From: Lentzea tibetensis
GTDB taxonomy: Bacteria > Actinomycetota > Actinomycetes > Mycobacteriales > Pseudonocardiaceae
Length of the DNA stretch: 64,000 nucleotides
Assembly: GCF_007845675.1 (NCBI RefSeq)
Contig: NZ_VOBR01000006.1
Span: forward strand, 186,001 to 250,000
Direction: 5' to 3'
The notes under the pieces are model-generated. The model searched no databases and was not told where the DNA came from. It saw nothing but the letters and a program-made list of their open reading frames with translations. Positions 5,095-40,141 of the stretch are shown piece by piece. The position numbers were made by a program, and so were the translations under genes. Within the stretch, counting starts at the first letter, position 1; the number at the start of each line of letters is the position of its first letter.

Positions 5095-5158
5095 GATCAA
5101 CACCTTAGTTTCAGTACGCGTCAGCGGTGTGTCAGCGTCACCTGATTGGATGAGGCGC

Positions 5159-6190
5159 ATGAACATCAACCGCAGGTTCGCGCTCGGCCTCGGGACCGTG
5201 GCCGCCGCGACCGCCGTGCTGGGCTCCGGCAGTGCCTCCGCGCAGACGGAGGACGAGCCCGAGATCGAGCGCTTCCCCACGACCGCCGAACGGTCGCGCA
5301 AGAAGGTGGCCCAGGTCTACAAGCGGCAGGTCCGCAAGGCCAAGGGCACCTGGTCTTCCTACATCACCGTCGCCGACCCGAACGGCGCCTGCCGCGCCGC
5401 GGTCGAGGAGAACGCCGACCAGGTCGTCGAGGCCTACAGCGTCAACAAGATCGCCGTCGCGGTCGCGGTGCTGGACAAGGTCGACCGGGGCCTGATCAAG
5501 CTCACCGACCGGGTCGAGGTCACCCAGGCGATCGTCATCCAGGACACCGACGGCATCTTCGGCCTGGACGGCGCCTACCCCAGCTCCGTCACGGTCGGCC
5601 ACGCGCTCGCCGCGCTGCTGACCGTCTCGGACAACACGGCCGTCCGGCTCAGCGGACTGGTCTGCCCGGCCCTGGAGCTCAACGAGATCCTGCGTTCCAA
5701 GGGTTTCGTGCACACCCAGGTCGTGCCGGTCGCGAACCCGAACCGCTTCTTCCTCGGCACCACGACGCCGCGCGAGATGCACACGATGCTGCAGAAGCTG
5801 GTCGAGGGCTCGCTGCTCTCCCCCGCGTCCACGCAGTACGTGCTGAACATCCTCCGCTCGCTCACCAGCTTCACCGACGGCGCGCGGCTCAACCTGTCGT
5901 CCAACGAGCGGCTGCGCGTCGCCACGAAGGCCGGCTGGTTCGACGACGGCCGCAACGAGGCCGGTGTCATGTTCAGCGAGGACGGCAGGCCGATCCTGAT
6001 CTACTCGCTGTTCGCGTCGGGCACGTTCGCGGGTGACAAGGCGGCGAACGACGAGAACTTCAGCTTCACGCACCCGGCCGTCGGCGCGCGCGCCGAGCTG
6101 GGCCGCACCATGTACGACGCGGTTCTCAAGATCACGACGACCAAGCCGAAGCACAACCCGACCGTCTACCGGATGGTCAACGGCGGCTGA
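5159..6190 (+). CDS. Secreted class A beta-lactamase-fold protein (tandem copy 1)
   Basis: A 343-residue exported serine hydrolase-like protein. The start at 5159 aligns with its paralogue at 6289 and gives a twin-arginine-like signal (NRRFALGLG) ending near SASAQ. Motifs in order are SVNK (nucleophile SxxK), SDN in TVSDNTAVRL, TTTPREM, and KAG in ATKAGWFDDG where KTG is usual. Between SDN and TTTPREM there is no ExxLN, the deacylating Glu of true class A beta-lactamases. It may therefore acylate without turnover, act on another amide or ester, or be a sensor. It is followed by a strong terminator and then the paralogue. Confidence 0.85.
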   Translation: MNINRRFALGLGTVAAATAVLGSGSASAQTEDEPEIERFPTTAERSRKKVAQVYKRQVRKAKGTWSSYITVADPNGACRAAVEENADQVVEAYSVNKIAVAVAVLDKVDRGLIKLTDRVEVTQAIVIQDTDGIFGLDGAYPSSVTVGHALAALLTVSDNTAVRLSGLVCPALELNEILRSKGFVHTQVVPVANPNRFFLGTTTPREMHTMLQKLVEGSLLSPASTQYVLNILRSLTSFTDGARLNLSSNERLRVATKAGWFDDGRNEAGVMFSEDGRPILIYSLFASGTFAGDKAANDENFSFTHPAVGARAELGRTMYDAVLKITTTKPKHNPTVYRMVNGG

Positions 6191-6195
6191 CAGAT

Positions 6196-6229
6196 CCCGG
6201 TGCGTCAGGGCCTGCCCTGACGCACCGGG
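6196..6229 (+). terminator. Rho-independent-type hairpin after first beta-lactamase-like gene
   Basis: Perfect 15-bp stem (6196-6210 with 6215-6229) and a four-base loop, six bases after the stop at 6190. It separates the two paralogues into different transcription units. There is no U-tract. Confidence 0.85.
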
Positions 6230-6288
6230 CCCGACAGGTGTGCGCGGAGTAACTGAACTGCCGCGGCTCGTACACCGTGTAACCGGGC

Positions 6289-7317
6289 ATGAAAATCAAC
6301 CGCAGATCAGCTCTCCGGCTCGGCACCGTCGCGGCCTCGGCCGCCGTACTGGGCGCCGGAACCGCCGCACTGGCGCAGGAGTCGCCGGCGGGGAGCTCCT
6401 CAGGCGCTGCGGAGCAGTCGCGCAGGAAGATCGCGCAGTCCTACGGCAGGCAGGTCAAACAGGCCAGGGGCACCTGGTCGTCGCTCATCACGGTCGCTGA
6501 ACCGACAGGCTTACCCATGGCCGCCGTCGAGGACAACGCCGACCGCGTCGTCGAGGCCTACAGCGTGAACAAGATCGCCGTCGCGATCGCCGTGCTCGAC
6601 AAGGTCGACCGCGGCCTGATCAGGCTCGACCAGCGGGTCGACGTCGTCGAGAGCATCGTCGCGAAGGACACCGACGGCGTCTTCGGCCTGGACGGCGCGT
6701 ACCCGAGCCAGGTCACCATCGGACACGTGCTGTCGACCATGCTGACCGTCTCGGACAACACCTCCGTCCGGCTCTGCGGCCTGGTCTGCCCGGCGCAGGA
6801 GCTCAACGAGATCCTGCGCGCCAAGGGATTCCCCATGACCCAGGTCGTGCCGCTCGCCGACAAGCCCAACCGCTTCTTCCTCGGCACCACCACACCGCGC
6901 GAAACGCACGCACTGCTCCGGCAGCTCGTCGACGGCACCCTGCTGTCCGCGAACTCCACCCGCTACCTGCTGAACATCCTGCGCTCGCTGTCGGCGTTCA
7001 CCGACGGCGTGCGGCTGAACCTGTCGTCCACCGAGCGGCTGCGCGTCGCGACGAAGGCGGGCTGGTTCGCGGACGGCCGCAACGAGGCGGGCATCATCTT
7101 CTGCTCGGCGGACCGCCCGGTGCTGATCTACTCGATGTTCGCGTCGGGCACGTTCGCCGGTGACAAGGCTGCGAACGACGAGAACTTCGGCTTCACGCAC
7201 CCCGCCGTCGGCGCACGCGCCGCACTCGGACGCACCATGTACGACGCGGCGGTCAACATCAGCACGACGCAGCAGCAGTACCCGCCGCTCGCCTACCGCA
7301 TGGCCAACGGCGGCTAG
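6289..7317 (+). CDS. Secreted class A beta-lactamase-fold protein (tandem copy 2)
   Basis: A 342-residue paralogue of the preceding gene, highly similar throughout. It has the Tat-like signal INRRSALRLG, SVNK, SDN in TVSDNTSVRL, TTTPRET and KAG in ATKAGWFADG, and again no ExxLN glutamate. Conservation of the same non-standard set in both copies argues that the altered active site is functional rather than decayed. It probably has its own promoter, since a terminator precedes it. Its stop shares the palindromic CTAG with the convergent tctA stop (7314-7317). Confidence 0.85.
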   Translation: MKINRRSALRLGTVAASAAVLGAGTAALAQESPAGSSSGAAEQSRRKIAQSYGRQVKQARGTWSSLITVAEPTGLPMAAVEDNADRVVEAYSVNKIAVAIAVLDKVDRGLIRLDQRVDVVESIVAKDTDGVFGLDGAYPSQVTIGHVLSTMLTVSDNTSVRLCGLVCPAQELNEILRAKGFPMTQVVPLADKPNRFFLGTTTPRETHALLRQLVDGTLLSANSTRYLLNILRSLSAFTDGVRLNLSSTERLRVATKAGWFADGRNEAGIIFCSADRPVLIYSMFASGTFAGDKAANDENFGFTHPAVGARAALGRTMYDAAVNISTTQQQYPPLAYRMANGG

Positions 7318-8825
7318 CTGGCGTCGTCACGGCCACCTCGACCGACCTCGTGCCGATCGAGGTGGCCGTGCCGCCGGACCCGCAGGAGCGGCACGGCCAC
7401 CACGGCGATCACGAACAGCGCCAGCAGGGTCGCGGAGATCGGCCGGGTCACGAAACCCAGCAGGGAGCCGTCGAACAGGCGCATCGACCGCCGGAACGCG
7501 GACTCCAGCAGCTCGCCGAGCACGAACGCCAGCACGAACGGGCCGGGTTCGAAGCCGAGCTTCTTCATCCCGTAGCCGAGCAGCCCCAGCACCGCGACCA
7601 GCACCATGTCGAACACGTTGTTGCGCAGGCTGTAGACGCCGATCATGGTGATCAGCACGGTCAGCGGGGCCAGGATCGACTGCCGCACCTTCAGCAGCCG
7701 CACGAAGAGCCCGATGAGCGGGACGCTGAACAGCAGCAGGAACAGGTTCCCCACGTACATCGAGTTGATCACGCCCCAGAACACGTCCGGGTGCTGGTCG
7801 ATCAGCGCGGGCCCCGGCGGCACGCCCTGAAGCATCAGCGCGCCGTACAGCACGGCCATCGTCGCGTTGGCCGGGAGTCCCAGCACCAGCAACGGGATGA
7901 ACGACGACGTGGCCGCCGCGTTGTTCGCGGTCTCCGGCCCGGCGACGCCCTCGATGGCGCCCCGGCCGAACCGCGACGGGTCCGCCGCGAACCGCTTCTC
8001 CACCGCGTACGCGACCAGTGACGACATCGTCGCGCCACCGCCGGGCAGCACGCCGAGCAGGAAGCCGACCACCGACCCGCGCAGGATCGCGAGCCGCGAC
8101 CGCAGCCAGTCCAGCCGCGACGGCCACGCGCGCCCGAACGCGGGCACGTCGGCGGACGCGCTCTGCCGGTGCTCGAGGTTGTAGAGGATCTCCCCCACCC
8201 CGAACAGTCCCATCGCGACGATCACGAAGTCGATGCCGTCCGCGAGCTGGTCGCTGCCGAACACGAACCTCGGCTCGCCCACCATCGGGTCCGACCCGAC
8301 CGTCGCGAGCAACAACCCGGCGGCAGCGGCGGCGACGCCTTTGACGAGCGTCCCGTTGCCCAGTGACGCCACCAGGAAGATGCCGATCAGCGCCAGCACC
8401 GTGTACTCGGCGGGCCCGAACTTCAACGCGAAGTCGGCCACGAACGGCGCGACGGCCGACAGCAGCACGATCGACGCGGTGCCGCCGATGAACGACCCGA
8501 TCGCCGCGATCCCCAGTGCGGGCCCGGCTCTGCCCTGCCGCGCCATCTCGTGCCCGTCGAGCACGGTCACCACGGTCGACGCCTCGCCGGGCAGGCGCAG
8601 CAGCACAGACGTGATGGTGCCGCCGTACTGCGCGCCGTAGAAGATGCCCGCCAGCAGGATGATCGCCGGCGCGGGCTCGAGGTCGTAGGTGATCGGCAGC
8701 AGGATCGCGATCGTCGCCGCGGGCCCGAGTCCGGGCAGGACGCCGACGAGCATGCCGAGCGTGACGCCGAGCAGGCACCACAGCAGGTTCTGCGGCTCGA
8801 ACACCACCGCGAAGCCGGACCACAC
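7314..8825 (-). CDS. tctA: Tripartite tricarboxylate transporter large permease TctA
   Basis: A 503-residue multi-spanning membrane protein of the TctA family, the ion-coupled permease of tripartite tricarboxylate transporters. The N-terminal half carries the conserved [17 protein letters not shown] segment and [13 protein letters not shown]; the second half repeats the theme with [13 protein letters not shown], pointing to the internal duplication typical of the family. GTG at 8825 follows the tctB stop by three bases. It is the last gene of the tctC-tctB-tctA operon. The substrate, probably a carboxylate such as citrate or tartrate, cannot be read from sequence. A 14-bp-stem hairpin lies within its 3' coding end. 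Confidence 0.93.
7328..7370. terminator. Hairpin at the tctA 3' end, possible bidirectional terminator
   Basis: Perfect 14-bp stem (7328-7341 with 7357-7370) and a 15-base loop, sitting 11 bases past the end of the plus-strand beta-lactamase-like gene and inside the last codons of convergent tctA. It is placed to end transcription from the plus strand. For tctA it would lie before the stop codon, which is unusual. Confidence 0.5.
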
Positions 8826-24793: not shown

Positions 24794-26809
24794 GTGCAGC
24801 GTCCCTCGGTGGTCACCATCGTCCTGCTGGCCGCCGCGCTGGCGCTCGCGGGCAACATGGCGACCAACACCGTGCAGGTGTCCTCCGGCTGGTGGCCGTA
24901 CGCGATCTGGGGCGTCGTCGCGCTGCTGGTGATCGCGACGATCGCGGTCGAGGTGAACCGCGCCCGCGACGCGCTGGACGTGACGCGGGTGTCGAGGCTG
25001 ACCGACCCGATCAAGCTCGGCGTGCACCCGGCGGCGTCCGTCTCCTCGTCCCGCGTCCCGCCGTTCATCGCGCGCGATCGCCTGCCGGACCTGGAGAACG
25101 CGCTGCGCACCGGCGGTTTCGTGCTCGTCGTCGGCGACTCGACGGCGGGCAAGACGCGACTGGCGTACGAGGCGATGCGTCGCGTGCTGCCGCGCCACCT
25201 GTTCATCCGCCCGCGCACCCCGGACGCGCTGCCCGCGGCCCTGGCTCTCGCGAAACGCAAGCGCCGCAGCGTGCTCTGGCTCGACGACCTGGAGCGCTAC
25301 CTCGGGTTCCACGGCCTGGCCGAGCTCCCCCGCTGCGTCGTGCTCGCCACCATGCGCACCCACGAACGCGACGACCTCAGCCACCGCCACGACCCGGCCC
25401 GGTCGGCGGGCGAACGCCAGTCCGCGCGCGTCGGCCGTGACGTGCTGAACCTGGTCACGGTCGAGATCCGCCTGGACCGCATGTGGTCGCAGGACGAGCT
25501 GGCCCTCGCCGGCGCGTCCGACGACTCCCGCATCACGCAGGCGCTGGCGAGCGCGGACAAGCACGGCATCGCCGAGTCGATGGCCGCGGGCCCGCAGCTG
25601 CTGCGCGAGTGGCAGGACGCGCGTGACGTCCGGGGCGCGGCGATCGTCGCGGCCGCGGTGGACGTGCGGCTGGCCGGCTACCACCGCCCGCTGCCGCTGG
25701 ACTTCCTGCGCTCGCTGCACACGTCGTACCTGGACGCGGCGGATCGTCCGGGGTCCTGGGAAGCCGCTCTTCAGTGGGCCGCGCAGCCGCTGCACGGCAC
25801 CAGCAGCCTGCTGGAGCCTTCCGGCGACGGCTTCCTGGCGTTCGACTACCTGGTCGACGCGACCGCGCAGTCACCCGCGATCCCCACCGCCACCTGGGAA
25901 GCGCTGATCGAGCACGCCGCACCGGCCGACCTCGTGGAGATCGCCTGGCAGGCGTCCTACAGCGGGCAGCTCGACCAGGTGGAGCGCGTCTTCGACCTGG
26001 TGCTCGACGCCGGGCTCGTCATGGGCGCGATGGAGGTCGCCACGTGTCTCGGCGACGCGGGACGCACCGAACGCGCCGTCACGATGCTCGAACAGCTCGT
26101 CGACCGGGCCGAAGGCGTCGTCTCGGCGGAGGAGCTGCTGGTCCTGCGCGGCAACCTGGTGTGGGAGATGGGCCAGAAGGTCGACGGCGAAGGCGATCCC
26201 GTCCGGGCGCTCGCACTCGCCGGGCAGGTCGCCGACGACTGCGCGGCCCTGCTCGGCGCCGAGCACCCCGACACCCTCGCCGCCCGGCTCACGCTGGCCA
26301 GACAGCTGGGCGGAGCAGGTCAGCCCGGCGAGGCCCTGCTGCTCGCCACCGGCGTGGGCATCACGGCGGCGGCACTGCACGGGGCCGACCACTGGGTCAC
26401 CCGGCGCTCGCGCTTCGAGGTCGCGAGCTGGACCTGGACCGTGCACGGAGCCGCGACCGCGGCGCCGCTGTTCCTCGCGCTGGCGCAACAGTTGGGATCA
26501 CTGCCCGCGGTCCGCGTGTCGGAGTTCGTCGACGTCCTGTGGAACCTCGGCGGCACCCTGCTGGAAGCGGGCGACGCGGCGGAAGCGGTCAGCGTGCTCG
26601 CCGACGCCGCCGACCAGGCCGCGCTGGCGTTCGGCAACCAGCACGAGCGGACGCTCCGCGTGCGCCTCTCCCACCTGGAAGCCGTTGCGGCGACAGGTGA
26701 TCCCGGCGAGCTCGCGGCGTCACTGGCGGCCGACTGCGTGGCCGCACTCGGCCCGGACCATCCGACCACAGTGGACGCTCTGCGCCTCAGTACTCGTCAC
26801 GGAGCTTGA
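24794..26809 (+). CDS. Membrane-anchored P-loop NTPase with TPR-like C-terminus
   Basis: A 671-residue protein. Two N-terminal membrane helices (about residues 6-20 and 33-54) are followed by a P-loop ATPase domain with Walker A GDSTAGKT (114-121) and Walker B VLWLDDLER (160-168), then a long alpha-helical region with tetratricopeptide-like repeats (for example GEHP/AEHPDTLAARLTLARQL, a motif shared by Kinesin-light-chain-type TPRs). The layout resembles STAND-type signalling ATPases, with TPRs as a sensor. No catalytic effector domain is visible, and the membrane helices may be the effector. GTG at 24794 starts four bases after the HxlR stop. Confidence 0.75.
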   Translation: MQRPSVVTIVLLAAALALAGNMATNTVQVSSGWWPYAIWGVVALLVIATIAVEVNRARDALDVTRVSRLTDPIKLGVHPAASVSSSRVPPFIARDRLPDLENALRTGGFVLVVGDSTAGKTRLAYEAMRRVLPRHLFIRPRTPDALPAALALAKRKRRSVLWLDDLERYLGFHGLAELPRCVVLATMRTHERDDLSHRHDPARSAGERQSARVGRDVLNLVTVEIRLDRMWSQDELALAGASDDSRITQALASADKHGIAESMAAGPQLLREWQDARDVRGAAIVAAAVDVRLAGYHRPLPLDFLRSLHTSYLDAADRPGSWEAALQWAAQPLHGTSSLLEPSGDGFLAFDYLVDATAQSPAIPTATWEALIEHAAPADLVEIAWQASYSGQLDQVERVFDLVLDAGLVMGAMEVATCLGDAGRTERAVTMLEQLVDRAEGVVSAEELLVLRGNLVWEMGQKVDGEGDPVRALALAGQVADDCAALLGAEHPDTLAARLTLARQLGGAGQPGEALLLATGVGITAAALHGADHWVTRRSRFEVASWTWTVHGAATAAPLFLALAQQLGSLPAVRVSEFVDVLWNLGGTLLEAGDAAEAVSVLADAADQAALAFGNQHERTLRVRLSHLEAVAATGDPGELAASLAADCVAALGPDHPTTVDALRLSTRHGA

Positions 26810-29475: not shown

Positions 29476-29773
29476 CCACGGCTTCGACCCCACCCTGTCC
29501 GCACGAATCGTCGACCAGGCGCCGGTGTTCCTCAAGGCGTGCGCCGACAACCGCGGCACGCCGCTGTCGCCGAGCTGGCTGGTCGACATCGGGTGGCACG
29601 CCTTCCTGCTGCACACCCGCGAGTACGCCGAGTTCTGCCAGCGGGTCGCGGGACGGTTCATCCACCACGTGCCGACCGACGAGCCGGGCGGCACGACCAC
29701 CGGTCACACCATCGAGGCAATCAGGGCATCGGGCTTCACCGTCGACGAAACCCTGTGGGAGAACAGCTGCTGA
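29387..29773 (+). CDS. Glycine-rich-domain-containing-protein-like small protein
   Basis: A 128-residue protein. The segment PSWLVDIGWHAFLLHTREYAEFC matches the W-H-xF-x-L-x-T-xx-Y-x-FC pattern of the GRDP-like (DUF1399-type) family; the C-terminus ends DETLWENSC. GTG at 29387 has a clear GAAGGAG site. The family has no established biochemical role. It is the first of a compact set: the phosphotransferase-like gene overlaps its stop by one base (TGATG). Confidence 0.72.
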   Translation: MTVQHTHRLDGHSLVPTALFDRLVARITADHGFDPTLSARIVDQAPVFLKACADNRGTPLSPSWLVDIGWHAFLLHTREYAEFCQRVAGRFIHHVPTDEPGGTTTGHTIEAIRASGFTVDETLWENSC

Positions 29774-30546
29774 TGACGAAGCACATGCTCTGGGAAGACC
29801 TGCCCGACCAGGTGCGGGACGCGGTCGCGGCGCACACCGGCCTCGTCACCACGGCCACCCCGGTGACGGGCGGCGTCAACTCGGCCCTCACCGTCGCTCT
29901 CGACACGGAGCAGGGCAGGTTCTTCTGCAAGGCAGTCGCAGCCGACAGCCGCATGGCGTGGATGCACCGCAACGAACTGACGGTGCATCCCGTCCTCCCG
30001 GGCATCGCCCCGGCCCTGCACTGGAACGTTGAGCAGGACGGCTGGCTTCTCCTCGGCTTCGAGCACGTCAGCGGCCGCCACCCCGACCTCTCCCCCGGCT
30101 CACCAGACATCGCTCCCACCATCGACGCGCTCCACGACCTCCACACGAAGCTCACCCCTTGCCCGAAGATCAGAGTCGCGAGCTTCGCCGACCACTGGCG
30201 GCAGCTGGACGTGGACCCGAAAGCACTCGAAATGACCGAAGGCGACACGCTGCTGCACACCGACCCGCACCCGCTGAACTTCTTGATCGACACCAGGGTC
30301 CGGGTGATCGACTGGGCGTGGGCGCGCAGAGGCGCATCGTGGGTGGACGACGCGTTCTTCGCCACCCGGCTGATGATCGCCGGCCACACCCCTGAACAGG
30401 CGGAACGCCACACGAACCGAGTCCCGGACGAGTTCGTGAGGGCACTGAGCCAGGTGTGGGCACAGCTCGCCGAGAAGGACCCGAAACCACACCGCCGCCG
30501 ACTCGCGGACGTTGCGAAGCGGTGGGCCCAGCACCGGGTAGCGTGA
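29773..30546 (+). CDS. Aminoglycoside phosphotransferase-like kinase
   Basis: A 257-residue protein-kinase-like small-molecule kinase (APH/choline kinase fold). The N-lobe includes TPVTGGVNSALTVALDTEQG; the catalytic loop is LLHTDPHPLNFLID (a D-x4-N pattern) and the metal-binding Asp lies in VIDWAWARRG. It is likely to phosphorylate a small hydroxylated molecule; antibiotic resistance should not be assumed. It is translationally coupled to the GRDP-like gene (one-base overlap) and probably controlled with it opposite the TPR regulator. Confidence 0.83.
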   Translation: MTKHMLWEDLPDQVRDAVAAHTGLVTTATPVTGGVNSALTVALDTEQGRFFCKAVAADSRMAWMHRNELTVHPVLPGIAPALHWNVEQDGWLLLGFEHVSGRHPDLSPGSPDIAPTIDALHDLHTKLTPCPKIRVASFADHWRQLDVDPKALEMTEGDTLLHTDPHPLNFLIDTRVRVIDWAWARRGASWVDDAFFATRLMIAGHTPEQAERHTNRVPDEFVRALSQVWAQLAEKDPKPHRRRLADVAKRWAQHRVA

Positions 30547-30804: not shown

Positions 30805-31713
30805 GTGGAGGTCCTCACCCGAGCCGAGTGGCACGAGCGCCGTGACGCGCATGTAGACCGCGTCCGCAGGTGGACGGGTCCGCACCAGGAACGCAAGCTC
30901 CGCAAGGAGAAGCACCCGGTCCTCGACTTCCTGTTCACGTACTACTCGCACCGGCCGGTCCGCCTGGAGCGCTGGCACCCCGGCCCCGGCGTGATCCTCG
31001 AGGACGCGACCGAGTACGCGGACATCCCGCACTACAAGGTCACCGCACAGGGCGTCACCCTCGACGAGGACAGCTTCCGCGAGGCGCGCGGTAAGACGAT
31101 GACCTTCGTCGAAGCACTCCTGAAAGCCACGCTCAGCCGACCGGCCCGGCTCAACTGCTTCGGGCTGCACGAGTGGGCCATGGTGTACCGCCAGACCCCG
31201 GAACAGGTCCGCCACAACGCGTGGCCGCTCAGACTCCAAGAGAACACCGACGAGGTCGTCGAGAACGCCAAGATCCAGTGCGGGCACTTCGACGCGTTCC
31301 GGTTCTTCACCGAGGACGCGCGGCCGCGCAACGCCCTTCAGCCGACGCGCGAAGGTCAGACCGAGAACGAGCAGCCCGGTTGCCTCCACGCGAACATGGA
31401 CATCTTCAAGTGGGCCTACAAGCTCGAGCCCGCTACGCCGTCCGAGCTGGTCGCGGACTGCTTCGAGCTCGCGGGGGACGTGCGTGAGCTGGACATGCGC
31501 GCCAGTCCGTACGACCTGGCCGGCCTCGGCTACCCGCCGATCAAGATCGAGGATCCGCAGGGGCGCGCCGAGTACGTCCGGCAGCAGGCCGAGTTCGCGA
31601 AACGGGCCGAGCCGCTCAGAAGGCAGCTCATCGAGCTCTGCGAAGAACTACAGGCCGGCGGCCAGCGCGGTGACGACCTCGTCCTGACGGTCCTCCCGCA
31701 CGGAACGCGATAG
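30805..31713 (+). CDS. Protein annotated in relatives as 3-methyladenine DNA glycosylase
   Basis: A 302-residue protein of an actinobacterial family often labelled 3-methyladenine DNA glycosylase, although no catalytic HhH or AAG motif is visible to me. Characteristic segments are KHPVLDFLFTYYSHRP, LNCFGLHEWAMVYR, CGHFDAFRFFTEDARPRN, QPGCLHANMDIFKWAY and ELVADCFELA; the conserved His/Cys/Asp residues suggest an enzyme with a metal or covalent site. GTG at 30805 is used, 11 bases after the small zinc-finger gene. The 3' end overlaps the convergent lipoprotein gene by 66 bases. Confidence 0.78.
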   Translation: MEVLTRAEWHERRDAHVDRVRRWTGPHQERKLRKEKHPVLDFLFTYYSHRPVRLERWHPGPGVILEDATEYADIPHYKVTAQGVTLDEDSFREARGKTMTFVEALLKATLSRPARLNCFGLHEWAMVYRQTPEQVRHNAWPLRLQENTDEVVENAKIQCGHFDAFRFFTEDARPRNALQPTREGQTENEQPGCLHANMDIFKWAYKLEPATPSELVADCFELAGDVRELDMRASPYDLAGLGYPPIKIEDPQGRAEYVRQQAEFAKRAEPLRRQLIELCEELQAGGQRGDDLVLTVLPHGTR

Positions 31714-32475
31714 CTCGACGTGTGCGAACGGGCTGCCCGCCTCCGCGCAGGCGCGGCCCTGGACGTTGCGGGTGCCCTCGAGCTTGCCGCACTCCGACTG
31801 CCAGCCGCGGCAGACCTCGAACGAGCTGAGCGACTCGGCAAGAGAACGCACGAAAGGCCCGGTGGCCGCGCTGCCGGGCGACACCACGACGTCGGCGTCC
31901 GGCAGGCTGCCGTCGTGGAAGCCGTGGATCTGCAGCTGCGGCACGTCCTGCTCGGCCAGCCGGACGGCCATGGCGTGGAAGACGGTGTCCGGCTCGTGTG
32001 CGACGTCGGCCACGCGGCGGTGGGTGCCGGAGACCAGCAGCATCGCGCCGGGCACCTTGCGCCACAGCGCGAGGCCGATGCGTTCGGTGTCCAGGTCGGT
32101 GGTCGGGTGCGGCACCTCGATCGCCACGCGCAGCGACGTGGACGTGTCGGCCAGGTAGAGCCCGTCGCCGCGGGACGACCGCGCCAGCGCGTACTTGCGG
32201 CCGGAGACGGGGTCGGTGCCGTTCACGGTGGTGAAACCCGCAGGTGAGGAACCCTCTAAAAGCTCCTGAGCTGTCCGCTTCGGGGCCGATGGGCGCCGAA
32301 ACGAGACGTCCGGTGACAGGGCTGTGGTGAATTCCGCAATGACGTCGGCGAGATCGGGCTCAGCGATCACCGGAGCCTCTGACCTGCCCGAACACGCCAC
32401 CAGCAGGGAACCTGCGAGCAGCGTCCCGATCACTCGCACCCGCAGACCGACTCGCACGCTTTGGACGATAACCAC
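31648..32475 (-). CDS. Lipoprotein of unknown function, divergent from the PGA-type locus
   Basis: A 275-residue lipoprotein with lipobox LLVACS. GTG at 32475 is used; GTG at 32457 is nearly as good. The mature part has a compact set of conserved-looking polar motifs: VAIEVPHPTTDLDTERIG, LLVSGTHRRVADVAHE, LQIHGFHDGSLPDADVVVS, and near the end CRGWQSECGKLEGTRNVQG. The His/Glu/Asp content (PHP-x-T-D-x-D-TE, GTHR, HGFH) looks like a metal-binding amidohydrolase or peptidase surface, but I recognise no named family. Its position, divergent from pgsB-pgsC-type genes, would suit a polymer-trimming enzyme; this is inference. Confidence 0.72.
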   Translation of the reverse strand: MVIVQSVRVGLRVRVIGTLLAGSLLVACSGRSEAPVIAEPDLADVIAEFTTALSPDVSFRRPSAPKRTAQELLEGSSPAGFTTVNGTDPVSGRKYALARSSRGDGLYLADTSTSLRVAIEVPHPTTDLDTERIGLALWRKVPGAMLLVSGTHRRVADVAHEPDTVFHAMAVRLAEQDVPQLQIHGFHDGSLPDADVVVSPGSAATGPFVRSLAESLSSFEVCRGWQSECGKLEGTRNVQGRACAEAGSPFAHVELSRSVREDRQDEVVTALAAGL

Positions 32476-32613
32476 CCATATGGCACCCTTGCCCGCGTTC
32501 GGGTGAACCTCGCACACGTGATGCCCCGCACTCATTGGGCCAAACGTGTCACGCGAGCACGCTTTCGGGCGATACGCACTCGAATCGGACTGACCTGGGG
32601 GGGTCCTGGGAAA

Positions 32614-34713
32614 ATGGCGAGCAGACGAAGACCTGACCGACCGCGGTTGGTGGAGCAGATCCCGGAGAGCGGGTTTCCCTCCGGGGTGAAGACCCCGTCC
32701 GCGGTGCTGCTGGTGATGTTGCTCGCGCTCGCAGGCCTGTGCGCGTTCCTGGTGCGCACCAACGACAACGGTGCCGTACCTGGCGCGTTCGTGCAGTCGC
32801 AGGAACGCCTCGTCGACGGGCTGTCCCGCTCGGTCGCGGCGACCGCGGCGCAAGGCGTGAACGACCTGCGCACCGCCGCCGCGGCGAAGACGGTGAACAC
32901 CGAGGCGCTGCTCGGCAGCCATCCGCAGTGGCGCGGTGTCGCACTCCTCGACGGCGCGACGACGGTGTCCGCGCACGGTGAGCCGGTGCCCGCCGACGCG
33001 GTCTCCGCCAAGACCGACGCGTCGGTGACGCCGGTGCCCGGTCCCGAGCTGCGCATGGTCGTCGCCGTGAAGCTCCCGGACGACAGCGGCCGCGTGCTCG
33101 TCGCGACCATGGCCGCCGGTGTGCCGTTCGCGCCGCTGGACGCCGGCCTGCGGCAGGGCCTCGTGCTGCTCGACCGCGAGGGTCACGTCGTGGGCACGCG
33201 CGGCACCGCGCCCACCAAGGAAACCGCCAGCGAGAAGCTGCTCGGCGACGCGGCCCGTGCCGACCAGGTCGGCAGTGCGGTCGTCGAGAACGGCGACAAG
33301 CACGCCACCGTCGTCGCGCACGCGCCCGTCACGTCCGAGAGCCTCAACGGCGCGCTCGGGCTGTCCGTCGCGGCCGTGTCCGAGGTGCCGCTGACCACCC
33401 CGGTGTCGCGCTGGCCGGGCCTGCTGCCCGCCGCGGCGCTCGCGCTCATCGCGCTGATCGGCTTCGCGCTGATCAGGAAGGTGCTGGTCGGGCCGGTGCT
33501 GCGGCTGCGCGAGGACGCGCTGGCCATCGCGGGCGGCGACCTCGACCACCGCGTCCGCACGACGCGCTGCGCCGAGGCCAACCGGATCGCGCTCGCCGTC
33601 CGGCAGTGCCAGAGCGCGTTGCGCCGCAAGCACTCCCGCAAGTCGCCACGCGCCCGCCGCTACTCGGCCGCGCTGGCCGTCGTCATCGCCGCCACGGGTG
33701 TGCTCGCGTGGTCGGCGGCCGTCGCGGTCACGTCCGGACGCGGCGCCGTGCTCGTCCCGAACACCGTGGTCGCGGGCAGCCACAGCCTCCTCGGCGGCAC
33801 CGCGGAAGCCGTGCGGCGCAGCATCAACGACGGCCTCGCCGACGTGCGCGCGTTCGCCAAGCTCAACGGCGCGCAGGACACCGAGTCGATGAGGGCCGCC
33901 GTCGAGCAGCTGGCAGGGCAGAGCCGCTACCGCAACGTGTCGGTCGTCGACCAGGCGGGCGCGCCGCTGGTCTCGTCGGGCCGGGATCCGTTGCGCGCCA
34001 AGGAGACCAAGCCGTCCGGCGAGGGCATCCGCCTGCAGGACGCGACCAGTCCGGTGCCGGTGCTGTTCGCGCACGCGCCGCTGGGCGACGGCACGCGGCT
34101 GGTGGTCGCCGAGTACGACGTCGAGCACCTGTCGAACCTGCTCCGCCGCGCGCCGGGCGAGGTGCGGCTGGTCGACGCCGAGCTGCGGACCATCGCGTCA
34201 ACGCACGGGTTCTCCGCGTTCGAACCGCTGCGCGCGGAAGCGTTGCGCACCAGCGCGATCGACGCGCTCGCCGGTGCGCCGACGACGCACGTGCGGGACG
34301 TGTCCGGCAGCCGCTCGGTGATCGCGGCCCGCGGGCTCGACAACGACCTGCACTGGGCCGTCGTGTCCGAGCAGCCCGCGAGCGAACTGGACCTGGCGGG
34401 CAACGTCGAGCAACGCGGTGCGCTGCTCGTCGCACTGCTGGGTGCGATCCTCGCGCTGACCCTGTTCGGCTGGCACCACCTGGTGCTGGTGCGGCCGCTG
34501 CGCAGGCTGGCGGACACCGCCGACCGGCTGCGCGAGGGCGACACCGGCGAGACGATCTTCCCGCAGCGCCAGGACCAGGTCGGCACGATCGCGTGCTGCC
34601 TGGAGATCTGCCGGCAGGCGCTGGTGGACGGGGTCGGACGGCTGGGCGTGGTGCGCAGGCCGCGCGGCGCGGCGACCGACGTCACCGAGCTGATGAAGCC
34701 CGTGCGGGTCTGA
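32614..34713 (+). CDS. Double HAMP-domain membrane protein without output domain
   Basis: A 699-residue protein built of two similar modules. Each has a membrane helix (about residues 27-46 and 350-372), an extracytoplasmic sensor region of 200-230 residues (cache-like, containing VSVVDQAGAPLVSSG), a second membrane helix (about 268-290 and 603-625) and a HAMP domain (VLRLREDALAIAGGDLDHRV and RLADTADRLREGDTGETIF). No kinase, cyclase or methyl-accepting domain follows the second HAMP. It may relay signals by partner proteins or sense the extracellular polymer. ATG at 32614 is used. pgsB follows after three bases, so they form one operon. Confidence 0.82.
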   Translation: MASRRRPDRPRLVEQIPESGFPSGVKTPSAVLLVMLLALAGLCAFLVRTNDNGAVPGAFVQSQERLVDGLSRSVAATAAQGVNDLRTAAAAKTVNTEALLGSHPQWRGVALLDGATTVSAHGEPVPADAVSAKTDASVTPVPGPELRMVVAVKLPDDSGRVLVATMAAGVPFAPLDAGLRQGLVLLDREGHVVGTRGTAPTKETASEKLLGDAARADQVGSAVVENGDKHATVVAHAPVTSESLNGALGLSVAAVSEVPLTTPVSRWPGLLPAAALALIALIGFALIRKVLVGPVLRLREDALAIAGGDLDHRVRTTRCAEANRIALAVRQCQSALRRKHSRKSPRARRYSAALAVVIAATGVLAWSAAVAVTSGRGAVLVPNTVVAGSHSLLGGTAEAVRRSINDGLADVRAFAKLNGAQDTESMRAAVEQLAGQSRYRNVSVVDQAGAPLVSSGRDPLRAKETKPSGEGIRLQDATSPVPVLFAHAPLGDGTRLVVAEYDVEHLSNLLRRAPGEVRLVDAELRTIASTHGFSAFEPLRAEALRTSAIDALAGAPTTHVRDVSGSRSVIAARGLDNDLHWAVVSEQPASELDLAGNVEQRGALLVALLGAILALTLFGWHHLVLVRPLRRLADTADRLREGDTGETIFPQRQDQVGTIACCLEICRQALVDGVGRLGVVRRPRGAATDVTELMKPVRV

Positions 34714-34716
34714 GCC

Positions 34717-35925
34717 GTGGTCTTCCTGTTCTGCGTGTTCGCCATCGCCTGCTCGGCCGTGCTGTTCGCGGGCGTGGTCGAGCAGCGGCGGCACTTCGCC
34801 CACCTGGAGACGATCCCGACGAGGGTGCTGGTCAACGGCATCCGCGGGAAGAGCTCGATCACCCGGCTGTGCGCGGGCGCGCTGCGCGGCGGCGGGCTCG
34901 TGACGGTCGCGAAGACGACCGGCACCGCGGCGCGGTTCATCCACCCGGACGGCAGCGAGGAGCCGGTCTACCGCAAGTTCGGCATCGCGAACGTCGTGGA
35001 GCAGATCGGCATCGTGCGCCGCGCCGCCGCGTACCACCCGGACGCGCTGGTGATCGAGTGCATGGCGGTGATGCCGGACCTGCAGGAGATCAACCAGACC
35101 AAGCTGATCCGGTCCACCATCGGCGTGCTGTGCAACGTCCGCGAGGACCACCTCGCCGAGATGGGACCGACGCTCGACGACGTCGCGCGCTCGCTGAGCC
35201 GCTCCATGCCGGTCGGCGGCGTGTGCGTGACCGCGGAGCGCGACCGGCTGGACATCCTGCGGGACCAGGCGAAGCGACGCGCGTGCGAGCTGATCGTCGT
35301 CGACCCGGAGTCGGTGTCCGACCGGGAGATGGCCGGGTTCAGCTGGATCACGTTCAAGGAGAACGTGGCCATCGCGCTGAAGGTCGCCGAGCTGCTCGGC
35401 GTGAACCGGACGCTCGCGCTCGCCGGCATGTGGTCGGCGCCGCCGGATCCCGGCGTGCTGAGCGTGCGGCACCACCGGTACGGCCGGAAACGGCTGCGGC
35501 TGGCGAACGTGTTCGCCGCCAACGACCCGGAGTCGACGCTGATGAACATCGAGCAGCTGCTCGGCCAGGGCGCCATCGCGCGCCCGCTGCACGTGGTGAT
35601 CAACTGCCGTCCCGACCGGGTGGAGCGCAACGGGCAGATGGGCGCGCTGGTCGAGCACATCGCGCCGGACCGGGTCGTGCTGATCGGCGAACCGACCCGC
35701 AGCGCGCGCAACGCCGTGCACCCGGACTGGCAGGACACCGTCACGGACCTCGGTGGCCGCCGCGACTCCAGCGAGCTCGTCAAAGCGTTGTTCGCAGGCG
35801 TCCCGGACGGCGGTGAGGCGTCGGTCGTGACCGTCGGCAACATCCACGGCCAGGGCGAGCTGCTGCTGGAGGCGTTGCACCCGCTGACCTTCGACCCGCA
35901 GACCGAACCGAGGAGCCCCCGTTGA
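34717..35925 (+). CDS. pgsB: Poly-gamma-glutamate synthase subunit PgsB/CapB
   Basis: A 402-residue amide ligase of the CapB/PgsB family, close to the 393-residue Bacillus subtilis protein. An N-terminal membrane anchor precedes the P-loop NGIRGKSS (residues 40-47), then AKTTGTAARFIHPDGSEE (the relatives have GKTTGT), ECMAVMPDLQEINQ, NVREDHLAEMGPTLDD, the AANDPEST segment, INCRPDRVERN and VGNIHGQGE, all recognisable PgsB blocks. The family polymerises glutamate through gamma-amide bonds via an acyl phosphate. GTG at 34717 follows the HAMP gene by three bases, and the stop overlaps pgsC by four. Confidence 0.95.
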   Translation: MVFLFCVFAIACSAVLFAGVVEQRRHFAHLETIPTRVLVNGIRGKSSITRLCAGALRGGGLVTVAKTTGTAARFIHPDGSEEPVYRKFGIANVVEQIGIVRRAAAYHPDALVIECMAVMPDLQEINQTKLIRSTIGVLCNVREDHLAEMGPTLDDVARSLSRSMPVGGVCVTAERDRLDILRDQAKRRACELIVVDPESVSDREMAGFSWITFKENVAIALKVAELLGVNRTLALAGMWSAPPDPGVLSVRHHRYGRKRLRLANVFAANDPESTLMNIEQLLGQGAIARPLHVVINCRPDRVERNGQMGALVEHIAPDRVVLIGEPTRSARNAVHPDWQDTVTDLGGRRDSSELVKALFAGVPDGGEASVVTVGNIHGQGELLLEALHPLTFDPQTEPRSPR

Positions 35926-36410
35926 ACGCCACCGGCCAACTGATGCTGCCGGGGGTCATGACCCTCGCACTCGCCATCGGGCTGGTGTTCTCACTGGTCT
36001 GCTACCTGACGACGAACCTGTCGCCGGGCGGGATGATCACGCCGGGCTGGCTGGCGCTGACGCTGGTCACGAAGGCGGAGTTCGTCGCGATCATCGTGCT
36101 GATGACGGCGCTCACCTACGGCGCGACGCGGCTGCTGCAACGGTTCGTCATCCTCTACGGCAAGCGGCTGTTCGCGGCGGTGGTGCTGACCGCGGTGCTG
36201 TTGCAGAGCGGGCTGTTCCTGCTCGTCCTGCACGACGCGCCGACGTTGTTCATCCACCAGACGCTCGGCTTCGTCGTGCCCGGCCTGATCGCCTACCAGC
36301 TGGTGCGCCAGCCGCCGCTGGCGACGGTCCTCGCGACCGGCGCGGTGAGCCTGGTGAGCTACGGCGTCGTGATGAGCGGCGTGCTGATCGGGCTGGTGCC
36401 TGCCCTGTGA
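35922..36410 (+). CDS. pgsC: Poly-gamma-glutamate synthesis membrane protein PgsC/CapC
   Basis: A 162-residue integral membrane protein with several helices, matching the CapC/PgsC family (149 residues in Bacillus). Conserved parts are NLSPGGMITPGWLAL, the helix end RFVILYGKRLFAAVVL and GFVVPGLIAYQLVRQ. It forms the membrane part of the polymerase complex with PgsB and probably helps secretion. The start is TTG at 35922, overlapping the pgsB stop (TTGA), with GAGGAG upstream. The GTG start of the next gene overlaps its stop. Confidence 0.94.
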   Translation: MNATGQLMLPGVMTLALAIGLVFSLVCYLTTNLSPGGMITPGWLALTLVTKAEFVAIIVLMTALTYGATRLLQRFVILYGKRLFAAVVLTAVLLQSGLFLLVLHDAPTLFIHQTLGFVVPGLIAYQLVRQPPLATVLATGAVSLVSYGVVMSGVLIGLVPAL

Positions 36411-37468
36411 AGCTGCGCGTGTCGACCAACACCACCGGCAAGCCGTGGCCGCGCTGGGTGCGGATGACGGTGCTGCTCGGCGTGATCTGCGTGTCCGGGG
36501 CGGGCGCGGTGTACGTGGCGATGCAGGAGCCGGTCGCCGACCAGCTGCCGAAGGCGCTGCCGCTGGAGAAGGTCACGGCGTCCGCGCCCGCGGGCGCGTC
36601 GTTCCGGTTCGACCGGTTGGACGGCCCGCCGCGCACCGTGGTGCGCGACGCGAACGGCGCGGTCGTGGCGACCATGACGGACGGCGCGCGCACGGTGGCG
36701 CTGACCGGGCCCGCCAGGTCGTTCAAGGAGCCCGCGTTCACCACGGCGGCGGTCAACACGACGGTGTGGGTGCGGCTGCTCGACCAGCCGTGGGAGGCGG
36801 GCGCGGAGAAGGCGCAGTGGTTCCGGCCGTGGCTGGACAAGGTGCTCACCGACCAGAGCCCGGACGTGCTCGCCGTCGCGATGGAGTACCTCAACGGCGC
36901 GCCGGCCGAGAAGGACGCGAAGGCCGTGCGGTTCCGCGGTGACGCGCAGTTCGGGCCGGTCGCGGCCGGTGGCGCGGGCAGGCTGGAGCAGTCCGACTTC
37001 CTCGACTACCTGGGCCTGACCTGGACGTTCCCGGACGCCGGCGCACGCAAGCCCAAGCCGGCGCACCTGGGCGCGCTCGACTGCTCGGGCTTCGTGCGGA
37101 TGGTCTACGGGTACCGGCTCGGCTACCCGCTCCTCGGCACGAACGAGGCCGGACAGGGGCTGCCGCGCAGGGCGTTCGCGATCGCCGAGTCCGGGCCGGG
37201 CGCGCTGGTGGTACCGAACCGTCGTCAGCGCACCACCGAGTACGGCGTGCTCCAGCCGGGTGACCTGGTGTTCTTCGAGGTCGAGCAGGGTGAGGACCAA
37301 CTCGACCACGCGGGCATCTACCTCGGGCTGGATTCGGACGGCCATCACCGGTTCGTGTCGAGCCGCGAACGGGCGAATGGTCCGACGTTCGGCGACCTCG
37401 GTGGCACGTCGTTGCTGGATGACGGCGGTATGTATTCGAGGGGATTCCGGGCTGCCCGGCGTATTTGA
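36407..37468 (+). CDS. Membrane-anchored NlpC/P60 cysteine peptidase
   Basis: A 353-residue protein with an N-terminal membrane anchor (about residues 19-37), a long linker region and a C-terminal NlpC/P60 domain. The catalytic Cys226 lies in LDCSGFVRMVYG and His301 in DHAGIYLG; the helix between resembles papain-like cell wall hydrolases. In Bacillus, an NlpC/P60-type gamma-DL-glutamyl hydrolase (PgdS) is encoded beside pgsBCA, so this protein may trim or release the polymer; it could instead cut peptidoglycan peptides. It overlaps the pgsC stop by four bases. Confidence 0.85.
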   Translation: MKLRVSTNTTGKPWPRWVRMTVLLGVICVSGAGAVYVAMQEPVADQLPKALPLEKVTASAPAGASFRFDRLDGPPRTVVRDANGAVVATMTDGARTVALTGPARSFKEPAFTTAAVNTTVWVRLLDQPWEAGAEKAQWFRPWLDKVLTDQSPDVLAVAMEYLNGAPAEKDAKAVRFRGDAQFGPVAAGGAGRLEQSDFLDYLGLTWTFPDAGARKPKPAHLGALDCSGFVRMVYGYRLGYPLLGTNEAGQGLPRRAFAIAESGPGALVVPNRRQRTTEYGVLQPGDLVFFEVEQGEDQLDHAGIYLGLDSDGHHRFVSSRERANGPTFGDLGGTSLLDDGGMYSRGFRAARRI

Positions 37469-37544
37469 TTTCACGGTCACCCCACCGATTCACCTGTTAG
37501 CGTGACGATCGGTCGTCGGGGGTCACCGGAGAAAAGGGAAGTCG

Positions 37545-39311
37545 ATGTCTCGACACCGCGCGCTGCGGGCGAGGGTCCGGCGCGGAGTCGCCAAGTGGCC
37601 GGTCGCCATCGTGGCACTCGTCGCCCTGCTCGGTCTCGGCTACCTGGGCTGGACCTGGGTCGGCGGGGTGCTCGAGGACAGGGCCGCGGCGCAGGCGAAG
37701 AACTGCAGCGAGGGCGAGGCCCTGCTGCGGATCGCGGCGACCCCGACCATCGCGGACTCCGTCGTCGAGGTCGCGAAGGCGTGGAGCGCCCAGCGGCCCG
37801 TCGTCTACGACCACTGCATCGTCGTCGAGGTGAAGTCCGTCGAGCCGCAGGTCGTGCAGGACAGCCTCACCACCACCTGGGACGAGGCCAAGCTCGGCGG
37901 ACGCCCGCACGCGTGGCTGCCCGACTCCTCGCTCTGGGCGAACCGGCTGGCCGCGCAGAACCGCGCGCTGCTCGGCGCCGAACCCAAGTCCATCGCCACC
38001 AGCCCGGTCCTGCTCGCGGTGCCCGAGGCGGGCGCGCAGGCGTTGATGACCGGCAACAGCTTCCGGTGGACCGACCTGCCCGACGTCACGAACTGGGCCA
38101 AGTACGGCCAGGCCGCGTGGGGCCGGTTCAGCGTCGCGATGCCCGACCCGGCGACGAACACGGCGACCGCGATGGCGATCCAGTCCGCGCTGGCCGGGGC
38201 GAGCCCGACCGGCAAGGGCCCGGTGACCGTCGAGATGCTCGCGATGGCGCCGGTGAAGTCCACGATGAGCAAGCTCGCCGCCGCGCAGGGCGAGACGACG
38301 GGCAGCACGTTCGACCTGCTGGCGAAGCTCAGCGAGAAGCCCGAGGTCAACAGCGCCGGGTTCAGCGGCGTGCCGGTGTTCGAGGTCGACCTCTACCGGC
38401 ACAACCTGGGCAAGGCGAAGAACACCGCGCCCGCGAAGCCCGTGGTCGGTGTCGCCGCGGGCGGGCCGACGCCGGTGGCGGACTTCCCGTACGTGCCGCT
38501 CGCCGGTGAGGGCGTCGGCGAGGCGGAAGCCCGTGCGGCGCAGGCGTTCCGCGAGTTCCTGATGGAACCGGACCAGCAGAAGATCCTGGCGCGCGGTGGT
38601 TTGCGGGTCGAGTCGTCGAAGGAGCACCCGAACCCCTCCCCCGGCGTGCGCTGGGCCGTGACGACCGAGAACCTGGTGCCCGCGGACGAGAACACCACGC
38701 AGCAGATCTCCGCGGCGTGGGCGACGGCCGACAACGGCGGCCAGGTCGTGACGCTGCTCGTCGACGTGTCCGCGTCGATGAAGGAGCCCGGTGGGGACGG
38801 GAAGAGCCGCCTCGACTGGCTCAAGACCGCGTTGAAGGGCCAGGTCGACCGGTCCGTCTCAGGATCGCTGGGGCTGTGGGAGTTCTCCCGCAACGTCGAC
38901 GGTGACAAGCCGTACAAGCAGGTCGTCGCCACCGGACCCGTTGGGCAGCAACGGGATGCGCTCGTCGCGGGGATCGACGGGTTGCAGCCCGTCAACGCCA
39001 CGCACCTCTACAGCAGCCTCGCCGCGGTCTACGGCTCGGCGCAGCAGGGCTTCCAGACCGGCAAGCCGAACCGGATCGTCGTGATCACCGACGGGCGCAA
39101 CGACGGTGGCATCGACCTGGCGGCGTTGAAGGACAAGCTCAAGGAGCTCAAGAAGAACGACGTGGTGGTCTCGTTCATCGCCGTCGGGTCCGAACCGGAC
39201 CGTCAGGCGCTGACGGACATCGCCAAGTCGACCGGGGGAACCCTTTCCGTCGTGGAGGACGGAAAGGGCATCGACCCGGCGCTGGGACAGTTGCTGTCCG
39301 AGCAGACTTAG
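37545..39311 (+). CDS. Substrate-binding and VWA domain protein
   Basis: A 588-residue protein anchored by an N-terminal helix (about residues 18-38). Residues about 55-350 resemble an extracellular solute-binding fold (LLRIAATPTIADSVVEVAKA, VAMPDPATNTATAMAIQSAL, and a last EARAAQAFREFLM). Residues from about 400 form a von Willebrand A domain with an intact MIDAS motif DVSASM (Asp407) and a TDGRNDGG metal-loop. Such proteins are thought to bind ligands at the cell surface through a metal ion. It is the last gene of the pgsB-pgsC-NlpC operon, in the place where other PGA loci have CapA/PgsA. Confidence 0.85.
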   Translation: MSRHRALRARVRRGVAKWPVAIVALVALLGLGYLGWTWVGGVLEDRAAAQAKNCSEGEALLRIAATPTIADSVVEVAKAWSAQRPVVYDHCIVVEVKSVEPQVVQDSLTTTWDEAKLGGRPHAWLPDSSLWANRLAAQNRALLGAEPKSIATSPVLLAVPEAGAQALMTGNSFRWTDLPDVTNWAKYGQAAWGRFSVAMPDPATNTATAMAIQSALAGASPTGKGPVTVEMLAMAPVKSTMSKLAAAQGETTGSTFDLLAKLSEKPEVNSAGFSGVPVFEVDLYRHNLGKAKNTAPAKPVVGVAAGGPTPVADFPYVPLAGEGVGEAEARAAQAFREFLMEPDQQKILARGGLRVESSKEHPNPSPGVRWAVTTENLVPADENTTQQISAAWATADNGGQVVTLLVDVSASMKEPGGDGKSRLDWLKTALKGQVDRSVSGSLGLWEFSRNVDGDKPYKQVVATGPVGQQRDALVAGIDGLQPVNATHLYSSLAAVYGSAQQGFQTGKPNRIVVITDGRNDGGIDLAALKDKLKELKKNDVVVSFIAVGSEPDRQALTDIAKSTGGTLSVVEDGKGIDPALGQLLSEQT

Positions 39312-40141
39312 GCGCTGTTGAACTTGTCCGGATCCGGGCCCGTTCGGGTCCCGTTGTTGAGTTCATTGATGACGGCCATGTCGTCCAGGGCGAGCTCGAA
39401 GTCGAAGACGTCGATGTTCTCCTTGACGCGGTACGGCGTGACCGACTTGGGGATCACGACGTTGCCGATCTGGATGTGCCACCGCAGCACGATCTGAGCG
39501 GGCGTCTTGGCGTACTTGTCCGCCAGGCCGCGGATCGCCTCGTCGTGCAGCAGTTCGCCGCCGCGCGCGAGCGGGGACCACGCCTCGGTCGCGATGCGGT
39601 GGGTGACGTGCACCTTGCGCATGTCTTCCTGCGCCAGCAACGGGTGCAGCTCGATCTGGTTGACGGCGGGCGTGATCGACGTTTCGTCGAACAGCCGCTG
39701 CAGGTGCTCGGTGTGGAAGTTGGACACGCCGATGGCGCGCACGCGGCCGTCGGCGTAGAGCTTCTCCAGCGCCTTCCACGACTCGACGTAGAGATCGCGC
39801 CGCGGGGTCGGCCAGTGGATCAGGTAGAGGTCGAGCACGTCGAGGCGCAGCTTGCTCATGCTGGCGTCGAACGCGCGCAGGGTCGAGTCGTAGCCCTGGT
39901 CGGAGTTCCACAGCTTCGTGGTGACGAACAGTTCCGAACGGGGGATGCCGCTGGCGGCCAGTGCGTCGCCGACGCCGGCCTCGTTGCGGTAGGCGGCCGC
40001 GGTGTCGATGCTCCGGTAGCCGGCTTCCAGCGCGGTGCGCACGGCGCCCGCGACCTGGTCCTCCGGCACCTGGAAGACGCCGAAGCCGAGTTGGGGGATG
40101 CGTACTCCGTTGTTGAGCCCGATCAGAGGAACTACTCCCAT
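39308..40141 (-). CDS. Aldo/keto reductase
   Basis: A 277-residue NADPH-dependent aldo/keto reductase. The catalytic tetrad is visible: Asp and Tyr in SIDTAAAYRNEAGVG, Lys in VTTKLWN and His in YLIHWPTP; the cofactor-binding end carries VVIPKSVTPYRVKEN. The substrate is likely to be an aldehyde or keto compound (family resembles 2,5-diketo-D-gluconate reductases). ATG at 40141 overlaps the WYL regulator gene end by ten bases, so the two are probably cotranscribed. Its 3' end overlaps the VWA gene by four bases convergently. Confidence 0.92.
   Translation of the reverse strand: MGVVPLIGLNNGVRIPQLGFGVFQVPEDQVAGAVRTALEAGYRSIDTAAAYRNEAGVGDALAASGIPRSELFVTTKLWNSDQGYDSTLRAFDASMSKLRLDVLDLYLIHWPTPRRDLYVESWKALEKLYADGRVRAIGVSNFHTEHLQRLFDETSITPAVNQIELHPLLAQEDMRKVHVTHRIATEAWSPLARGGELLHDEAIRGLADKYAKTPAQIVLRWHIQIGNVVIPKSVTPYRVKENIDVFDFELALDDMAVINELNNGTRTGPDPDKFNSA

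Follow-up and report, generated by a model that had tools for sequence, protein, structure and literature searches.

A 64,000-nucleotide stretch of the Lentzea tibetensis genome (contig NZ_VOBR01000006.1, positions 186,001 to 250,000; here called the window) carries a conserved gene set, HAMP-pgsB-pgsC-nlpC with a divergent lipoprotein gene, that we read, at a probability of about 0.62, as an actinomycete version of the PgsB-PgsC gamma-polyglutamate (PGA) synthase, coupled to a receptor, served by two trimming hydrolases and possibly making an L-rich product. In the proposed system, PgsB, the ligase, and PgsC, its membrane partner, would make and export the chain, while a dCache-HAMP membrane protein (HAMP protein) would sense an extracellular cue and switch or support PgsBC in the membrane. 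A PghP-like lipoprotein (LIPO) and an anchored NlpC/P60 protein would cut the chain or free it at the cell surface, and the product may be L-rich, given that no CapA is encoded at the locus. The genes, their conservation, the close HAMP-PgsB linkage and the predicted folds are shown here; we infer the polymer, its chirality, the gating, the enzyme activities and any part played by a CapA from elsewhere. The source genome, which contains the window, measures 9.36 Mb in 105 contigs and is 98.7% complete.

The assignment begins with PgsB, which scores 380.4 bits against the TIGR04012 equivalog (cut-off, 222.7), and with PgsC, which passes PF14102 at 112.8 bits (cut-off, 27); a sequence search of the PDB with PgsB gave no match. 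Every gene seen by a first-pass annotation of this DNA is present: PgsB, PgsC, an overlapping NlpC/P60 peptidase, a substrate-binding (SBP)/VWA protein and a double HAMP protein three bases before pgsB. That annotation had started the locus at 31648, which is the end of a minus-strand, divergent lipoprotein gene that it did not mention and that we count as part of the system. As pgsB/pgsC and pgsC/nlpC each overlap by 4 bases and only 3 bases separate the HAMP gene stop from the pgsB GTG, HAMP-pgsB-pgsC-nlpC reads as a single operon.

To define what is conserved around this operon, we compared 80 related loci, the best of 147 relatives in a contig scan with both PgsB copies of the genome, a selection that favors closer relatives; all are from Actinomycetota by their record titles. 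Gene content was scored by phmmer on open reading frames of at least 90 amino acids. The HAMP protein and PgsC occur in all 80 loci, NlpC in 78, LIPO in 61, CapA in 26 and the SBP/VWA protein in 1. When only the 68 loci whose flanks reach 8 kb or more before pgsB and 7 kb or more after it are counted, LIPO is present in 54, NlpC in 66 and CapA in 22. LIPO matches lie upstream and divergent in 52 of 62 cases, and the distance from the end of HAMP to the start of PgsB homology is -31 to +30 bases in 78/80 loci, the other two being at 31 and 275. When 1,191 predicted genes of 85 loci were clustered, the commonest family beyond the core reached 12 loci, although these counts are lower bounds, as the gene picker missed some core genes (PgsC was found in 41). 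The conserved unit is thus the lipoprotein plus HAMP-PgsB-PgsC-NlpC, and recurrence of the same gene block in related loci excludes a chance grouping. The earlier proposal of a PGA-type locus with an unusual set of partners is supported. Two loci have peculiarities of their own: that of Lentzea sp. NBRC 105346 (L007) has a second, partial HAMP-type gene upstream of the lipoprotein (4555-6003; 172 bits), and L008, titled Rhodococcus rhodnii with a 12.4-Mb genome, has a PgsB that groups with Kibdelosporangium, so that the record may be mislabelled.

The association between HAMP and PgsB is close to exclusive in a sample of 150 genomes of the order. PgsB exceeds its cut-off in 7 of these genomes and in 15 of a sample of 296 genomes of the phylum. 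HAMP, counted in the order sample at an E value threshold of 1e-20, is found in 6/7 PgsB-positive versus 0/143 PgsB-negative genomes; the seventh PgsB-positive genome (G133) has PgsB-PgsC-NlpC-CapA without HAMP. LIPO occurs in 6/296 phylum genomes, including 5 of the 15 with PgsB, and in the sixth (G294) only 4 bases separate its start from the end of a contig. Since one genome (G284) pairs LIPO with a HAMP-less PgsB (L124), LIPO appears bound to PgsB more than to HAMP.

A PgsB tree of 97 rows, from which G133 was left out, places all 86 HAMP-linked sequences on one side of a branch with 99/98 support and the 11 HAMP-less ones, 9 of them adjacent to CapA, outside this HAMP clade; by a program warning, long branches meet at the base. 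With G133 added, CapA lies beside PgsB in 10/12 HAMP-less versus at least 29/86 HAMP-linked cases, the latter a lower bound because some loci are short (L094, 3.2 kb). Within the HAMP clade, presence and absence of CapA switch several times. These patterns fit a history in which an ancestral PgsB-PgsC-(NlpC)-CapA locus would have gained HAMP, after which CapA would have become optional at the locus. The canonical PgsB-PgsC-CapA loci of other Actinomycetota (L114-L121, L123 and, from G133, L141) share PgsB and PgsC with the window, and L116, L117, L119 and L141 also have NlpC of the same family. In contrast, they have an adjacent CapA and no HAMP, and their PgsB sequences lie outside the HAMP clade (L141 is not in the tree).

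The L. tibetensis genome itself holds a second PgsB on contig C43, 73% identical to that of the window, within a complete paralogous cassette (L005) of NlpC-like protein, PgsC, PgsB, HAMP and divergent LIPO, with a multidomain CapA adjoining. Identity between the two cassettes is 41% for LIPO, 37% for HAMP and 49% for NlpC. Therefore, the five genes stayed together through duplication, with CapA beside one copy only. The genome also encodes another relative of the HAMP protein, broken between two reading frames (L140, 4153-5411; G000:C27:66146-67377), which looks like a decayed copy; the 10 kb read there contain no PgsB, PgsC, NlpC or lipoprotein matches.

LIPO has a hydrophobic N terminus ending in LLVAC; a lipobox was counted in 9/63 sequences, an uninformative figure, as N termini were trimmed by homology. 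The 56 family members yield no Pfam or NCBIfam match beyond chance, none matches PF05908 at an E value of 0.1, and a PDB sequence search with LIPO returned only chance-level matches. The predicted structure is of high confidence (predicted local distance difference test [pLDDT], 92.6; predicted template modeling score [pTM], 0.87). A Foldseek search of the PDB with this model puts PghL/YndL bound to PGA in first place, PghP(PM1) in third and PghP(phiNIT1) in ninth, with E values of 3.3e-6 to 5onj, 3.9e-6 to 21dc and 1.6e-5 to 3a9l and TM-scores to PGA hydrolases of 0.55-0.58 by target length; Atu2144 (2odf) and Csd4 come below. Comparison of the LIPO profile with nine PF05908 proteins of Actinomycetota pairs QLHGF with ALHGF, LEG..N with LDG..N and HVELSRSVR with QLELSKPLR.

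PghL has the zinc ligands His41, Glu46 and His102, His77 and Glu165 matter for its activity, Arg171Ser abolishes cleavage, and the enzyme cuts stretches of L-glutamate (PMC6506827). In LIPO, H175, E245 and R251 are profile-aligned with PghP residues and fit the later three PghL sites, with conservation in 63, 62 and 62 of the 63 sequences, respectively. H114, D118, E122 and H151 (kept in 63, 63, 62 and 63) fit the earlier sites by order and conservation only. We describe LIPO as a PghP-like, putative zinc gamma-PGA hydrolase that is not filed under PF05908. It resembles PghP/PghL (YndL, PF05908) in predicted fold and in motif order (H..acid, H, HG, N, xE+6R), whereas it has no PF05908 match and is a lipoprotein encoded beside a synthase. 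A true PF05908 (PghP-type) protein lies elsewhere in the genome (G000:C17:214750-215340, L128; 140.9 bits).

The HAMP protein matches Pfam HAMP in one stretch (43.5 bits; cut-off, 25) and falls below the cut-off for dCache_1 (21.3 bits; cut-off, 45). Four hydrophobic segments (29-47, 269-287, 354-372 and 602-620) would frame two extracytoplasmic domains. Its model (pLDDT, 90.6) finds the dCache domains of chemoreceptors and kinases among PDB structures, and its profile matches the HAMP of chemoreceptors and the KinD sensor. As to output, Pfam gave no further domain, and the last modelled helix ends at residue 672 of 699, so that only a short, low-confidence tail follows the second HAMP. In this model, the protein consists of two dCache receptor modules and has no output domain. 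Like dCache-HAMP receptors such as the chemoreceptors Tlp3 and PctA and the kinase KinD, it combines a predicted extracytoplasmic dCache with HAMP; unlike them, it has two modules per chain and no kinase, chemoreceptor or cyclase output and is genetically linked to a ligase. A receptor that has no output of its own and is tied to a ligase suggests the ligase complex as its output. The R.W[YF] motif of amino-acid-sensing dCache domains is found in 0/81 HAMP proteins, and an amino-acid ligand is therefore not supported by it, though the structures matched by the model include chemoreceptors for amino acids.

The NlpC/P60 protein scores 35.1 bits against PF00877 (cut-off, 23) and retains Cys226 and His301, such that the window copy looks active. 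Of 80 NlpC sequences, drawn from 78 loci and from the two cassettes of this genome, 66 keep both residues. Eleven sequences lack the catalytic Cys, including those of 5/6 loci with multidomain CapA, which suggests a non-enzymatic role for the NlpC-like protein at such loci. In the C43 copy (L005, 6110-7084), Ala replaces this Cys. At another locus, L049, pgsC is followed by a tandem pair of same-family NlpC genes (5841-8307).

Several observations weigh against a receptor-coupled PGA synthase with its own hydrolases. PgsC, at 74.7 bits, is below the cut-off of the NCBIfam equivalog TIGR04011 (96.45), and the first-pass description of both PgsB and PgsC as strong holds for PgsB and less so for PgsC. 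LIPO is missing from 19/80 loci, some with short flanks. By query length, its TM-scores to PGA hydrolases reach only 0.44-0.46, putative metallopeptidases and REP34 rank between those hydrolases, and the profile comparison ties it to PghP only weakly (probability, 34%; E value, 4e-4; the unrelated HAMP profile gave 0.38). The link between receptor and ligase has gene order and exclusivity as its sole support. Further points concern CapA (PF09587), which is not found in the window locus and is represented by two proteins elsewhere in the genome, on C16 and C43. A search covering 50 of the 54 CapA-less loci found CapA elsewhere in 49/50 genomes, and older work found pgsA necessary (cited in PMC6029982 and PMC5751247). 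The proposed lack of CapA/PgsA thus describes the window operon and not the genome.

The CapA findings give a serious if somewhat less than even chance to an ordinary PgsBCA synthase that receives CapA in trans from C16 or C43, with HAMP as an accessory regulator. In its favor, besides the genes elsewhere, CapA exceeds its cut-off in 15/15 PgsB-positive versus 168/281 PgsB-negative genomes of the phylum and in 7/7 versus 80/143 of the order. However, these figures also show CapA to be common without PgsB, CapA is gone from 54/80 loci while the other parts remain together, and none was found in Streptomyces varsoviensis (L028), the sole exception of the 50, whose genome completeness is not stated. 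The first-pass annotation held that a complementing CapA elsewhere would refute its proposal; two CapA genes do exist elsewhere, either of which might serve this locus. Its suggestion that the HAMP protein fills the CapA role is possible and unproven: HAMP is a constant partner (80/80), but CapA accompanies it in 26/80 loci, and since CapA persists elsewhere in the genome, replacement by HAMP is not demonstrated.

For the receptor-coupled synthase, the state of CapA bears on the product. Bacillus subtilis pgsBC without pgsA makes PGA with a D/L ratio of 5/95, compared with 75/25 with pgsA (PMC6029982). Where a synthase lacks CapA and lies next to a PghP-like enzyme, an L-rich chain is therefore to be expected, except if CapA comes in trans from another locus. 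A bolder version, which we consider rather unlikely as a whole, makes the dCache-HAMP protein a receptor with a polymerase output that would be located with PgsB-PgsC in the membrane and, on meeting a ligand outside the cell, would gate chain synthesis directly, bypassing kinase, cyclase and chemotaxis steps. It would have taken over the enhancing role of CapA in this PgsB clade, leaving CapA optional, and CapA-less copies would make L-rich gamma-PGA trimmed by the PghP-like lipoprotein.

That the PgsB/PgsC ligase builds another gamma-linked or mixed polymer in place of polyglutamate seems improbable. The subthreshold PgsC score, the distinct PgsB clade and the lack of a known product would allow it, whereas PgsB exceeds its equivalog cut-off and the co-encoded lipoprotein is PghP-like in fold. 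As this divergent lipoprotein has the predicted fold of gamma-PGA hydrolases, the evidence points to glutamate, the opposite of the earlier suggestion of a polymer perhaps not strictly of glutamate. It is hardly credible that the SBP/VWA protein (SBP_bac_11, 40.0 bits; VWA, 35.9 bits) substitutes for CapA, as had also been suggested: despite an N-terminal hydrophobic segment and a downstream position in both the window and L007, a Lentzea, it was not found in the other 79/80 loci and follows nlpC after a 76-base gap, and we rejected it as a part of the system.

The features are listed in Table 1. The LIPO start is uncertain (GTG at 32439, with alternatives at 32457 or 32433), and Rfam gave no match over 31000-39700 of the window. 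Upstream lie a TPR protein at 24794-26806 that matches FxSxx_TPR in part (65.6 bits; cut-off, 300) and a protein at 29539-30543 with a weak NACHT-helical NNH3 match below the cut-off.

Table 1. Genes of the putative PGA locus and the adjoining SBP+VWA gene, in window coordinates
Feature	Position	Strand	Evidence
LIPO, divergent PghP-like lipoprotein (putative zinc gamma-PGA hydrolase)	about 31648..32439	-	stop 31650-31648
HAMP protein, tandem dCache-HAMP membrane protein, 699 amino acids	32614..34713 (ATG 32614)	+	HAMP match, model
PgsB, gamma-glutamyl ligase	34717..35925 (GTG start)	+	TIGR04012
PgsC, membrane partner of PgsB	35922..36410	+	PF14102
NlpC/P60 protein, single N-terminal hydrophobic segment	36407..37468	+	PF00877
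SBP+VWA protein, neighbor judged outside the system	37545..39311	+	SBP_bac_11, VWA

Set beside the Bacillus PgsBCA(E)/CapBCA(E) systems, the locus shares the PgsB-PgsC order, the overlapping gene ends and a nearby NlpC/P60 protein (in B. subtilis PgdS, an NlpC/P60-type hydrolase). It differs in that the window operon lacks CapA/PgsA, has dCache-HAMP before PgsB and NlpC directly after PgsC, and is accompanied by a divergent PghP-like lipoprotein. PgsB together with PgsC has been reported by BLAST for 250 species of bacteria from 58 genera (PMC4497714), and a CapA-like "poly-gamma-glutamate biosynthesis protein" was described in Frankia (PMC2266912), so that actinomycete CapA-type proteins are already in print. 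In the literature searched, we found no published description of the HAMP-PgsB-PgsC-NlpC/LIPO cassette, although the species tables of PMC4497714 may list actinomycetes; actinobacterial terms sought in the available parts of PMC5751247 and PMC3815933 were not found.

The arrangement is common to many related soil bacteria, and it defines a locus conserved among actinomycetes, in which a family of hydrolase-like lipoproteins outside Pfam and NCBIfam occurs with a receptor-like partner tied to the ligase. If the proposed system is correct, it would offer a genetic handle on external switching of PGA synthesis and on the purpose of CapA, and it might serve as a source of L-rich PGA and of new enzymes that cut PGA.

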